Assembly (NCBI RefSeq): GCF_002931235.1
Contig: NZ_PSTT01000041.1
Location: 1 to 48,557 of the forward strand
Length of the DNA: 48,557 nt
Reading direction: 5' to 3'
Source: Subtercola sp. Z020
GTDB taxonomy: Bacteria; Actinomycetota; Actinomycetes; Actinomycetales; Microbacteriaceae
Shown in pieces: positions 7,671 through 14,833 of the stretch. Within the stretch, counting starts at the first letter, position 1; each line of letters opens with the position of its first letter. A model generated the notes under the pieces. The model was not told the origin of the DNA. It saw only the letters and a list, made by a program, of their open reading frames with translations, and searched no databases. The position numbers were made by a program, and so were the translations under genes.

Positions 7671-8318
7671 GTGCATCTCGTAGCCCTCACCGGTGGCATC
7701 GCCTCCGGAAAGTCCACCGTCGCAGCCCGCCTCGCCGAACACGGCGCCGTCATCGTCGACGCCGACAAACTCGCCCGCGAGGTCGTCGAGCCGGGAACGG
7801 ATGCCCTGCGGCAGATCGCGGAGACGTTCGGCAGCGACCTCCTCCGCCCCGACGGCTCGCTCGACCGCCCGGCGCTCGGCCAGCGCGTCTTCGGCCAGCC
7901 CGAGCAGCTGCAGAAGCTGAACGCGATCACGCACCCTGCGGTGCACCGCCTCGGCATGGAGCGCTTCGCCGAGGCAGAGGCCGCCGATCCCGACGCCATC
8001 GTCGTCTACGACGTTCCCCTGCTGGTCGAGGCGAGTGACCGCCCCTACGACTTCGAACTCGTCGTGGTGGTCAGTGCCGACGATGAGACGCGCGTGCGCC
8101 GGCTCGTCGACCTGCGGGGCATGGCGGAGCAGGATGCCCGTCGCCGGGTCGGCTCACAGGCTTCAGAGGCCGAGCGGCTGGCCGTCGCCGACCACGTGAT
8201 CGACTCCACTGGCACGCTCGACGAGACGCTGGCCCAGGTCGATGCACTCTGGACGACGCTCGAGGCACTGCCGCAGTCCGGCGCGCGAAGCGCGACGGCA
8301 TCCGGAGCCGGCAACTAG
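7671..8318 (+). CDS. coaE: Dephospho-CoA kinase
   Basis: 215 residues. It phosphorylates the 3'-hydroxyl of dephospho-CoA, the last step of CoA synthesis. The P-loop GGIASGKST is at residues 8-16, followed by VDADKLAREVVEPG and the lid-side VYDVPLLVE. The GTG at 7671 is the only start that begins the kinase fold correctly: a nearby ATG at 7663 is out of frame. The position after rpsA is conserved in many actinobacteria. It is convergent with pfkA; the two stop codons overlap in the palindrome CTAG (8315-8318), leaving no room for a terminator. Confidence 0.96.
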   Translation: MHLVALTGGIASGKSTVAARLAEHGAVIVDADKLAREVVEPGTDALRQIAETFGSDLLRPDGSLDRPALGQRVFGQPEQLQKLNAITHPAVHRLGMERFAEAEAADPDAIVVYDVPLLVEASDRPYDFELVVVVSADDETRVRRLVDLRGMAEQDARRRVGSQASEAERLAVADHVIDSTGTLDETLAQVDALWTTLEALPQSGARSATASGAGN

Positions 8319-9340
8319 CCGAAGAGCTGCGCGGCCTCGTCGTACCGGGCCTGCGGAACCGTCTTCAGCTTGCCGAGTGCCTCTTCGAAGCCCACGTTGA
8401 CGATCTCGGTGCCGCGGAGCGCCACCATCTGGCCCCACGCGCCGTCTTGCACCGAGTCGCTCGCCGCCATGCCCAGCCGGGTGGCCAGCACGCGGTCGTA
8501 GGCGCTCGGCACGCCGCCGCGCTGGATGTGGCCGAGGGTCGTGGCGCGGGTCTCGATGCCCGTCATCTCCTCGATCATGGGGGCGAGCCGCTCGCCGATA
8601 CCGCCGAGGCGCGGGCGCCCGAAGGCGTCGAGGCCGCGCTCGGAGTGCGGGTCGTCTGTCTCGCCGGGAGTGAAACCCTCGGCGACGACGACGAGCGGCG
8701 ACCGACCGCGAGCGTTGGCGCTCTCGACCCAGCCGCGCACCTCCTCCATCGTGGTCTTCTGCTCGGGGATCAGGATGGCGTGGGCGCCGGCGGCCATGCC
8801 GGAGTGCAGGGCGATCCAGCCGACGTGGCGGCCCATCACCTCGGCGACCATGCAGCGGCTGTGCGAGTCCCCGGTGGTGCGCAGGCGGTCCATCGCGTCG
8901 GTCGCGATCTGCACGGCGGTGTCGAAGCCGAACGTGTAGTCGGTGGCGTCGAGGTCGTTGTCGATGGTCTTCGGCACTCCGACGATCTTCAGCCCGGCAT
9001 CCGTGAGCCGTTTGGCGGCGGCCAGGGTGCCCTCGCCGCCGATCGCGATGATGGCGTCGATGCCCTCGCGCTGCATGTTGGCCTGGATGCGCTCGGGACC
9101 GCCCTCGCCCTCGAAGGGGTTCGTGCGCGAGGTTCCGAGGATGGTGCCGCCCTCTTTGGCGATGCCCCGCACGTTGGCGCGACCGAGTTCGAGCAGATCG
9201 GAGGTGACCACACCGCGCCAGCCGCCGCGGAAGCCGACGAACTCCTGGTCGTTGATCTCCGTGCCCTTCAGCACGATGCCGCGGATGACCGCGTTCAGGC
9301 CGGGGCAGTCTCCACCGCTGGTCAGGATTCCAATACGCAT
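8315..9340 (-). CDS. pfkA: 6-phosphofructokinase, group III, probably ATP-dependent
   Basis: 341 residues. It phosphorylates fructose 6-phosphate to the 1,6-bisphosphate. It shows TSGGDCPGLNAVIRG near the N-terminus, GGEGT, VPKTIDNDL and the substrate loop of actinobacterial group III enzymes. In this group, Gly in GGEGT (instead of Asp in GGEDT) is associated with ATP rather than pyrophosphate as donor, so ATP use is inferred. The start is supported by TAGGGT 6 nt upstream of the ATG. It is divergent from uvrB (93 bp) and shares its stop region with coaE. Confidence 0.95.
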   Translation of the reverse strand: MRIGILTSGGDCPGLNAVIRGIVLKGTEINDQEFVGFRGGWRGVVTSDLLELGRANVRGIAKEGGTILGTSRTNPFEGEGGPERIQANMQREGIDAIIAIGGEGTLAAAKRLTDAGLKIVGVPKTIDNDLDATDYTFGFDTAVQIATDAMDRLRTTGDSHSRCMVAEVMGRHVGWIALHSGMAAGAHAILIPEQKTTMEEVRGWVESANARGRSPLVVVAEGFTPGETDDPHSERGLDAFGRPRLGGIGERLAPMIEEMTGIETRATTLGHIQRGGVPSAYDRVLATRLGMAASDSVQDGAWGQMVALRGTEIVNVGFEEALGKLKTVPQARYDEAAQLFG

Positions 9341-9346
9341 GGCTAT

Positions 9347-9352
9347 ACCCTA
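9347..9352 (-). promoter_or_regulatory. -10 box of a leaderless pfkA promoter
   Basis: On the minus strand TAGGGT is followed by 6 nt (ATAGCC) and the pfkA ATG at 9340. There is no ribosome-binding site. Confidence 0.55.
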
Positions 9353-9405
9353 TGGCTTTCCCGCAGAGCGTAATCGACCCCGCAACCGGCCCGGAAGGGA
9401 GCCAG

Positions 9406-9427
9406 TGTCAGTGGTGCTTCGTAAACT
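9406..9427 (+). promoter_or_regulatory. PafBC-type (RecA-NDp) DNA-damage promoter of uvrB
   Basis: TGTCAGTG (9406-9413), 8 nt, then TAAACT (9422-9427) matches the mycobacterial LexA-independent damage promoter pattern TGTCRGTG-N8-TANNNT. The -10 box ends 6 nt before the uvrB ATG, so the mRNA is predicted to be leaderless. The 18 bases from 9397 to 9414 match the uvrA promoter at 17 positions. Regulation is inferred from the motif. Confidence 0.8.
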
Positions 9428-9433
9428 TGGAGC

Positions 9434-11497
9434 ATGGAACCCACTCGCTCTGTCCGCCCCTTCGAAGTCGTCTCCGAGTACACCCCGAGCGGTGACCAGC
9501 CGGGCGCGATCGCTGAGCTGACGGCCCGCATCAACGCGGGCGAGACCGACGTGGTTCTGCTGGGTGCGACCGGTACGGGAAAGTCGGCGACCACGGCCTG
9601 GCTGATCGAGGCCGTGCAGCGGCCGACGCTCGTTCTCGCCCACAACAAGACGCTCGCGGCGCAGCTGGCGAACGAGTTCCGCGAGCTGATGCCGAACAAC
9701 GCCGTCGAGTACTTCGTGTCGTACTACGACTACTACCAGCCCGAGGCGTACGTGCCGCAGACCGACACCTTCATCGAGAAAGACAGCTCGATCAACGCCG
9801 AGGTCGAGCGACTGCGGCACTCCACGACGAACTCACTGCTCAGCAGGCGCGACGTGATCGTGGTCTCGACGGTGTCGTGCATCTACGGCCTCGGCACGCC
9901 CCAGCAGTACATGAACGCGATGATGGCGTTGCAGGTCGGCATGAAGATCGACCGCGACTGGCTCATCCGCAAGTTCATCTCCATGCAGTACCAGCGCAAC
10001 GACATCGACTTCTCGCGTGGCAACTTCCGTGTGCGCGGCGACACGATCGAGATCATCCCGGTCTACGAAGAGCTGGCGATCCGCATCGAGATGTTCGGCG
10101 ACGAGATCGAGGCTCTGTACACGCTGCACCCGCTGACCGGAGACGTGATCCGCAAGATGGATGCGATCTCCATCTTCCCGGGGTCGCACTACGTCGCCGA
10201 CAACGACGTGATGCACCGCGCGATCGGCACCATCCAGGAGGAGCTCGGCGACCGGCTGAAGCAGCTGGAGCGCGAGGGCAAGCTCCTCGAGGCGCAGCGA
10301 CTGCGCATGCGCACCACCTTCGACCTCGAGATGATGCAGCAGATCGGTTTCACGTCGGGTATTGAGAACTATTCGCGGCACATCGACGGCCGAAACCCGG
10401 GGGAGGCGCCGCACTGCCTGCTCGACTACTTCCCCGACGACTTCCTGGTCGTCATCGACGAGTCGCACGTCACCGTGCCGCAGATCGGCGCGATGTACGA
10501 AGGTGACTCGTCGCGCAAGCGCACGCTGGTCGAGCACGGGTTCCGGCTGCCGAGTGCGCTCGACAACCGCCCGCTGCGGTGGAACGAGTTCAACGACCGG
10601 GTCGGCCAGAAGGTGTACCTCTCTGCGACGCCCGGCAAGTACGAGATGGGGATCGCCGACGGCGTGGTCGAGCAGATCATCCGCCCCACCGGCCTGATCG
10701 ACCCCGAGATCATCGTGAAGCCCTCGAAGGGGCAGATCGATGACCTGCTCGAACAGATCCGCACCCGGGTCGCGAAAGACGAGCGCATCCTCGTCACGAC
10801 CCTCACCAAGAAGATGGCCGAGGAGCTCACCGACTTCATGGGGGAGCACGGGGTGCGCGTGCGCTACCTGCACTCCGACGTCGACACGCTGCGCCGGGTC
10901 GAACTGCTCACCGAGCTCCGCGCCGGCGTCTACGACGTGCTGGTCGGCATCAACCTGCTGAGGGAGGGCCTCGACCTTCCCGAGGTGTCGCTGGTCGCGA
11001 TTCTGGATGCCGACAAGGAGGGCTTCCTGCGCTCGTCGACGTCTCTCATCCAGACCATCGGGCGTGCCGCGCGAAATGTCTCCGGCCAGGTGCACATGTA
11101 CGCCGATGTGATGACGGACTCGATGGCGCGTGCGATCGAGGAGACCACGCGCCGCCGCGAGAAGCAGGTCGCGTACAACCTCGAACGCGGGGTCGACCCG
11201 CAGCCGCTCCGCAAGAAGATCAACGACATCACCGAGATGCTCGCCCGCGAGGGCGCCGACACGGCCGAACTGCTGGCCGGTCGCGGTGGCAAGAAGAAGA
11301 GCCCGACGCCGAACCTGCGGCGCGAGGGAATCGCAGCTGCCGGTGCCAACGAGCTCGAAGGCCTGATCGGCGACCTCAACGACCAGATGATGACGGCGGC
11401 GGCCGAGCTGAAGTTCGAGCTGGCCGCGCGCCTGCGTGACGAGCTCGGCGACCTCAAGCGCGAGCTCCGCCAGATGGAGAAGGCCGGCCACATCTGA
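9434..11497 (+). CDS. uvrB: Excinuclease ABC subunit B
   Basis: 687 residues. UvrB is the damage-verifying helicase-like subunit of nucleotide excision repair. It is loaded by UvrA and recruits UvrC. Visible features: Walker A GATGTGKS (residues 44-51), the beta-hairpin region [20 protein letters not shown], the DESH Walker B, SF2 helicase motifs through [10 protein letters not shown], and a C-terminal UVR domain ([25 protein letters not shown]) that contacts UvrC. Full length. Its start is fixed by the leaderless promoter. uvrA and uvrC follow after one small regulator gene. Confidence 0.98.
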
Positions 11498-11590
11498 GTT
11501 AGGCTGATCCAACCGGGAGATGAGCAAGGCTCAGAAGCCCGGGGTGCGTGCGCTCTGGTCGCAGAGCACTCAGGTGGGTACTCATGAGGT

Positions 11591-11890
11591 ATGCCAGAAC
11601 TGCACTCGGAAGCCGCCCGCATCTTCGGGGATCGCGTGCGATCCAGTCGCCTGCAGCTCGGGGTCAGCCAGGAGCACGTCGCCGAGCTCGCCGAGATGCA
11701 CGTGACGAACGTCGGCAAGATCGAGCGCGGCCAGACGAACCCGAGCCTCTCGACGATCGTCGCGCTGGCCGGGGCGCTGAGCGCCGACCCGGGGTCGTGG
11801 GTCACCGGCATCCGTCCCGAGATGGTTCCGGGGCGGTCGCACACCCTCACCGCGGCCGAATTCATCCGAGAGCGTAGTCGGCGTGCCTAG
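11591..11890 (+). CDS. XRE-family helix-turn-helix protein
   Basis: 99 residues. Residues about 10-68 form an HTH_3/Cro-CI domain: [48 protein letters not shown] short tail after residue 70 shows no sensor domain. It sits alone between uvrB and uvrA, both with damage-type promoters. Whether it regulates them is unknown. TACTCA lies 6 nt before the ATG, a poorer -10 than those of its neighbours. An unrelated housekeeping role is equally possible. Confidence 0.85.
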
Positions 11891-11913
11891 CACACGGCGG
11901 CCACGGGAGGCAG

Positions 11914-11935
11914 TGTCAGTGGCAGACCATAGACT
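11914..11935 (+). promoter_or_regulatory. PafBC-type (RecA-NDp) DNA-damage promoter of uvrA
   Basis: TGTCAGTG (11914-11921), 8 nt, then TAGACT (11930-11935), the same architecture as uvrB. Six nt (TCTAAG) separate the -10 box from the GTG start at 11942. Confidence 0.82.
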
Positions 11936-11941
11936 TCTAAG

Positions 11942-14829
<2,888 letters not shown>

Positions 14830-14833
<4 letters not shown>

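Follow-up and report, generated by a model that had tools for sequence, protein, structure and literature searches.

In mycobacteria, PafBC is activated by single-stranded DNA and is placed between promoter DNA and sigma domain 4, the normal reader of the -35 box, with PafB reading the -26 motif and PafC contacting sigma, according to the account of the complex in PMC11804915. The consensus of the corresponding RecA-NDp promoters is quoted in a passage of PMC5656591 as tTGTCRgtg-8 nt-TAnnnT, alongside a 37% decrease of the uvrB transcript in an M. smegmatis pafBC mutant. The M. smegmatis PafBC regulon, as outlined in PMC8223512, includes UvrABC, and the same outline places mycobacterial uvrA under both PafBC and SOS control, so the two pathways are not exclusive. 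UvrA is described as overproduced in M. tuberculosis lacking RecA (PMC8151990). RecA-NDp promoters are not always leaderless, since the start mapped for Rv1955 lies upstream of the start codon (PMC2897130). Beyond mycobacteria, the PafBC of Arthrobacter aurescens is described as a natural fusion (PMC6789036). In Streptomyces venezuelae the mycobacterial motif was not conserved in the initial motif search described in PMC9380542, where Streptomyces species are stated to have PafBC homologues.

We analysed a 48,557-nucleotide stretch of the Subtercola sp. Z020 genome (contig NZ_PSTT01000041.1, positions 1 to 48,557; hereafter the window), in which uvrB and uvrA share the promoter layout TGTCAGTG-N8-TARACT-N6-start codon, exact at both genes. 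All features of the pair lie on the plus strand. At uvrB (9434–11497, 687 aa; NF003673 and TIGR00631), the TGTCAGTG sequence, a match to the PafBC-type -26 element, spans 9406–9413 and is followed after 8 nt by the -10 box TAAACT (9422–9427), with the ATG 6 nt beyond. At uvrA (11942–14833, 963 aa; NF001503 and TIGR00630), the matching -26 element spans 11914–11921, the -10 box TAGACT follows after 8 nt (11930–11935), and the start codon, again 6 nt beyond, is GTG. Both gene identities rest on NCBIfam equivalogs with scores above cut-off, and both genes are predicted to be leaderless, with which the 6-nt gap is compatible. Directly 5′ of the -26 elements lie the 9-nt extensions GGGAGCCAG (uvrB, 9397–9405; -37 to -29 counted from the ATG as +1) and GGGAGGCAG (uvrA, 11905–11913), and a small gene of 99 aa with an HTH_31/HTH_3 (XRE-like) domain sits between the two uvr genes (11591–11890). 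A divergent phosphofructokinase gene lies 5′ of uvrB (8315–9340, minus strand; intergenic region 9341–9433); with its ATG 6 nt past a TAGGGT box, this gene too may be leaderless.

The first-pass annotation of this DNA had described this layout, together with a match at 17 positions between 18-mers in otherwise unrelated surroundings. The coordinates hold at both genes, and 17 of the 18 positions are indeed identical. The flanking sequences are otherwise unrelated, as identity ends at the edges of the 18-mer, falling to 30% over the 60 bases upstream and to 1/7 over the next 7 bases. The twin-promoter observation is exact and beyond chance: TGTCRGTG-N8-TANNNT has two matches in the window against 0.02 expected, at least two were obtained in 0 of 100 shuffles, and the two matches are the uvrB and uvrA promoters, with no others in the window. 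Taking TTGACA as the -35 consensus, which we assume here, the hexamers at a 17-bp spacer (GAGCCA and GAGGCA) each agree at 3/6 positions, so neither uvr promoter has a consensus -35 box.

A genome-wide motif search, of the kind the first-pass annotation had proposed, yielded 19 sites matching TGTCNGTG and 0 for the reversed-pattern control. The start codon lies exactly 6 nt past the -10 box in 10 of these and exactly 7 nt past it in 2. The genes behind these 12 sites, named from their domains, are uvrB, uvrA, radA-like, dnaX-like, holB-like and RarA/MgsA-like genes, together with genes for an RNase_T exonuclease, DUF4191 and DUF3072 proteins, an aldo/keto reductase, an AMP-binding enzyme and an MFS transporter. 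A further site stands upstream of recA, farther from the gene. The remaining six sites have no ATG, GTG or TTG opening a frame of at least 60 aa within 17 nt, and may include chance matches. That 7 of the 19 sites fall outside the start-codon spacing counts against a PafBC-promoter explanation, as does the exact spacing before three genes of no evident repair role (the aldo/keto reductase, AMP-binding enzyme and MFS transporter). The motif is nevertheless enriched (19 versus 0), including before recA and the radA-, dnaX-, holB- and rarA-like genes, an enrichment of motif count rather than a statistic on repair function. Across 12 genomes of the genus there were 147 matches versus 10 for the reversed control, so that the regulon can be read from sequence at low background.

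The genome contains five WYL-domain matches, two of which are adjacent genes on contig C76 encoding proteins of 359 and 335 aa. Both match the solved PafBC structures 6sj9, 7p5x and 9fnd, with 6sj9, the Arthrobacter aurescens PafBC, as the best solved match to each (E = 9.1e-35 for PafB and 8.3e-35 for PafC); the NCBIfam search named neither pafB nor pafC. Thus the pafB and pafC genes that the first-pass annotation took as necessary to its reading are present side by side, as two separate genes, unlike the Arthrobacter fusion. The two genes that follow look like tatA and tatC, names read off by eye rather than by family search. A Pup ligase was looked for and not found in this assembly (98.7% complete), a difference from the mycobacterial system, and the mycobacterial Pup–proteasome circuit may therefore not carry over. 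Shared with the mycobacterial RecA-NDp promoters, including recA P1, are the core -26 element, the 8-nt spacer and the -10 box, along with DNA-repair targets that include UvrABC and separate, adjacent pafB and pafC genes. A PafC match was obtained in 77 of 80 family genomes; the weak matches may include other WYL proteins. The three genomes with no PafC match (G016, G025 and G098) also have no motif match, but this co-absence says little because many PafC-bearing genomes also have none; the filtered pattern matched in 51 of the 80.

The LexA/RecA SOS system likewise makes repair genes of this kind respond to DNA damage, but the uvr promoters here are without its box. With TCGAAC-N4-GTTCGA presumed as the SOS consensus, no box with two or fewer mismatches was found in the uvrB or uvrA promoter. 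The nearest SOS-like matches to the uvrB promoter, at 9237 and 9462, have three mismatches, and around the uvrA promoter (11419–12959) there was none with up to three. We therefore reject SOS co-regulation of uvrA and uvrB, as no box was found in their promoters. Elsewhere, the window contains a perfect palindromic SOS box, TCGAACATATGTTCGA (TCGAAC-N4-GTTCGA, 2001–2016), just 5′ of where a leftward ORF (1250–2008, no Pfam match) may have its start codon, near 1990, and thus holds a LexA-type site alongside its PafBC-type sites.

To place the promoters in a wider context, we turned to other members of the family. UvrB was matched in 79 of the 80 family genomes searched, including the window genome and a second member of the genus (G001); of the other 77, loci were fetched for 60 (L155–L214), the 17 lowest-scoring being left out. 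TGTCRG-N10-TANNNT precedes uvrB in 50 of these 60 loci from other genera, with a start codon 6–7 nt on in 46 and no match for the reversed control. Found in 50 of the 60 stretches, uvrA has the motif in 40 (27 with an 8-nt spacer, 14 with a 7-nt spacer, one with both; reversed control 0). The start codon follows 6–7 nt on in 19 of the 27 cases with an 8-nt spacer, and several of the others lie 39–83 nt 5′ of the alignment-derived start. In 12 of the 50 sister-genus uvrA promoters a 7-nt spacer is paired with 7 nt to the start codon, instead of 8 and 6, which keeps the -26 element and the start codon equally far apart; at uvrB the 7-nt spacer occurs in 0 of 60 loci. These uvrA promoters offer a test of the spacing tolerance of the complex. 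Among 30 loci from named genomes, chosen from a set of 80, TGTCNG-N10-TANNNT lies upstream of uvrB in 17, among them Microbacterium, Curtobacterium, Microcella, Arthrobacter, Nocardioides, Mycolicibacterium and Nocardia. It was not seen in the other 13 (two Bifidobacterium, Corynebacterium, Mobiluncus, Rothia, Saccharothrix, Hamadaea, Streptomyces oceani, three Acidimicrobiales and two further actinobacteria). The three best matches in the set of 80 point to the Microbacteriaceae as the most likely family of the window's organism.

The uvr promoters fit a promoter type already known from mycobacteria. From their sequence and spacing, the genome-wide enrichment, the pafBC genes and the conservation, we infer that the uvrB and uvrA promoters are very probably of the PafBC (RecA-NDp) type and probably give leaderless mRNAs. 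The S. venezuelae search and the Rv1955 start cited above weigh on the other side. The earlier suggestions of a mycobacterial-type damage promoter and of excision repair as part of a PafBC-type regulon are both supported in this respect by the motif, its enrichment and the presence of pafB and pafC, the second as a reading of sequence. Single-stranded DNA arising from damage would activate PafBC, which would allow RNA polymerase with the housekeeping sigma factor to use TGTCAGTG (-28 to -21) and TARACT (-12 to -7) even though a proper -35 box is lacking. Transcription would start at the start codon, giving leaderless mRNAs, and excision repair would be switched on along with recA and the radA-, dnaX-, holB- and rarA-like genes. 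The mycobacterial regulon would thereby extend to a further actinobacterial family, and to a genome where a Pup ligase was sought without success.

The first-pass annotation had further suggested that GGGAGnCAG, upstream of the known motif, may be a longer, undescribed part of the recognition site. Counting back from TGTC, with -1 directly before it, we compared these positions in the genus set of 12 genomes, where uvrA promoters were found in 12 and uvrB promoters in 11, giving 23 uvr sites. The uvrB promoter of G006 was not found with the patterns used, and that of G008 was named by its sequence and its distance from uvrA rather than from a fetched locus. Positions -9 and -8 are G in 23/23 uvr sites, -7 is G in 21/23, -9 to -5 are all purine in 20/23, and -1 is G in 22/23. 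Among the 124 other PafBC-type sites of the same genomes, GG occurs in 18, GGG in 10 and the all-purine form in 4 (Fisher p < 1e-15 for uvr versus other sites, values that overstate the case because the species are related). With species grouped by the similarity of their promoters, between-group identity of the 9-nt extension is 68% for uvrB and 75% for uvrA (10 uvrB and 12 uvrA promoters), whereas 9-mers farther upstream average 26% and 28%, with maxima of 36% and 37%, respectively.

Outside the uvr pair the outer and inner parts of the extension behave differently. In the 124 non-uvr sites, positions -9 to -5 carry 0.01–0.03 bits each, while -3, -2 and -1 carry 0.38, 0.37 and 0.18 bits. C at -3 is combined with a purine at -2 in 73/124 of these sites (18% expected from flanking composition) and in 52 of 118 sites in other genera (17% expected), the latter restricted to those whose base at -13 is G or C and whose start codon follows after 6 nt. 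T, which stands before TGTC in the mycobacterial consensus, is the rarest base at -1 in both sets (10/124 and 9/118). GGG at -9 to -7 is found in 6 of the 118 other-genus sites and GGGRR in none. The inner CAG reflects a general local preference for C at -3 and a purine at -2. The outer GGGAG, on these comparisons, is a footprint of uvrA and uvrB in the genus that PafBC sites do not generally share. The 124 genus and 118 other-genus sites led us to reject GGGAGnCAG as a feature common to PafBC sites; what stands of the suggestion is the conservation of GGGAG at uvrA and uvrB in the genus. Relative to the mycobacterial consensus, then, the genus prefers C at -3 and a purine at -2, and its uvr promoters add GGGRR at -9 to -5. 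The titles and opening lines of abstracts in the literature searched mention no such element and no PafBC in Microbacteriaceae; either may be in print elsewhere.

GGGRR lies about one helical turn 5′ of the -26 element, near the expected location of a -35 box. Its conservation is strong, and it may be a functional element of the uvr promoters, which would work through a contact of the same complex or through a second factor. One possibility, which we regard as doubtful, is that the PafBC–RNA polymerase complex itself reads GGGRR, whether by sigma domain 4, by the helix-turn-helix of PafC or in some other way; uvrA and uvrB would then form a class of PafBC promoter with greater strength or responsiveness. 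The centre of GGGRR is 10.5 bp 5′ of that of TGTCAGTG (about -37 to -33, counting the start codon as +1), so the two would be on the same face of the DNA, and the position of mycobacterial PafBC against sigma domain 4 is in keeping with such a contact (PMC11804915, in its account of the complex). That account, however, assigns the -26 motif to PafB and sigma binding to PafC, and GGGRR is absent from most other PafBC-type sites. Another possibility is a separate regulator coordinating the excision-repair pair, with a site overlapping the PafBC promoter. In its favour are the GG found in every uvr site against 18 of the 124 others and the presence of the small HTH gene between uvrB and uvrA in the window. 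GGGRR is, however, short and non-palindromic, and it keeps a set distance from the -26 element; we consider a separate regulator somewhat unlikely.

Two further readings are much less probable. GGGRR resembles a Shine–Dalgarno sequence, which could act in longer, read-through transcripts, with the G at -1 forming a GTG; GGAG occurs within -11 to -3 in 16/22 uvr promoters. That GTG is 29 nt from the start codon and out of frame in both genes, GGAG is missing in 6/22 promoters whereas GG at -9 and -8 is missing in 0/23, and leaderless mRNAs would exclude the sequence. We rejected this very unlikely reading because the GTG is out of frame and strict conservation is lacking. Gene conversion or a recent local duplication involving the two promoters would account for the 17/18 identity in the window and for the 9/9 identity of the extensions within G003 and within G010. 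Yet the uvrA and uvrB extensions are hardly more similar within genomes (6.7/9) than between them (6.5/9; 11 genomes, permutation p 0.24), and spacers and flanks differ. Gene conversion, the most improbable of these readings, was rejected for want of a signal in this comparison.

We infer that GGGRR would most likely tune both uvr promoters, by an extra contact of the PafBC–sigma complex or by a second factor. More generally, we tentatively propose that PafBC promoters come in classes, the uvr pair of the genus carrying a GGGRR element (at about -37 to -33, facing the same side of the helix as the -26 element) read by the PafBC–polymerase complex or a second factor, such that uvrA, uvrB and perhaps dnaX might respond unlike the rest of the regulon. 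The element offers a natural test of further upstream contacts in PafBC sigma adaptation. The dnaX site of the window genome (G000, contig C89, L013), GGGGAGCGG, also has GG at -9 and -8. So do sites in G001, G005, G006 and G008 whose -10 box and spacer end (GATACGAT or GATACCAT) are nearly identical to those of the dnaX site, which makes them candidate dnaX sites. These five are among the 18 non-uvr sites with GG, and the extra element may therefore reach beyond uvrA and uvrB.

Two repeated arrangements were seen in the wider survey. In a genome of the order (G058), five sites on contigs C1, C15, C16 and C17 have the identical promoter TGTCGGTGGTGGTGCGTAGGTTTGTCGCATG, perhaps marking a repeated gene family under PafBC. 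Tandem TGTCGG repeats (GTGTCGGTGTCGGTGTCGGTG) occur at PafBC-type sites in two genera (G064, contig C13; G112, contig C1).
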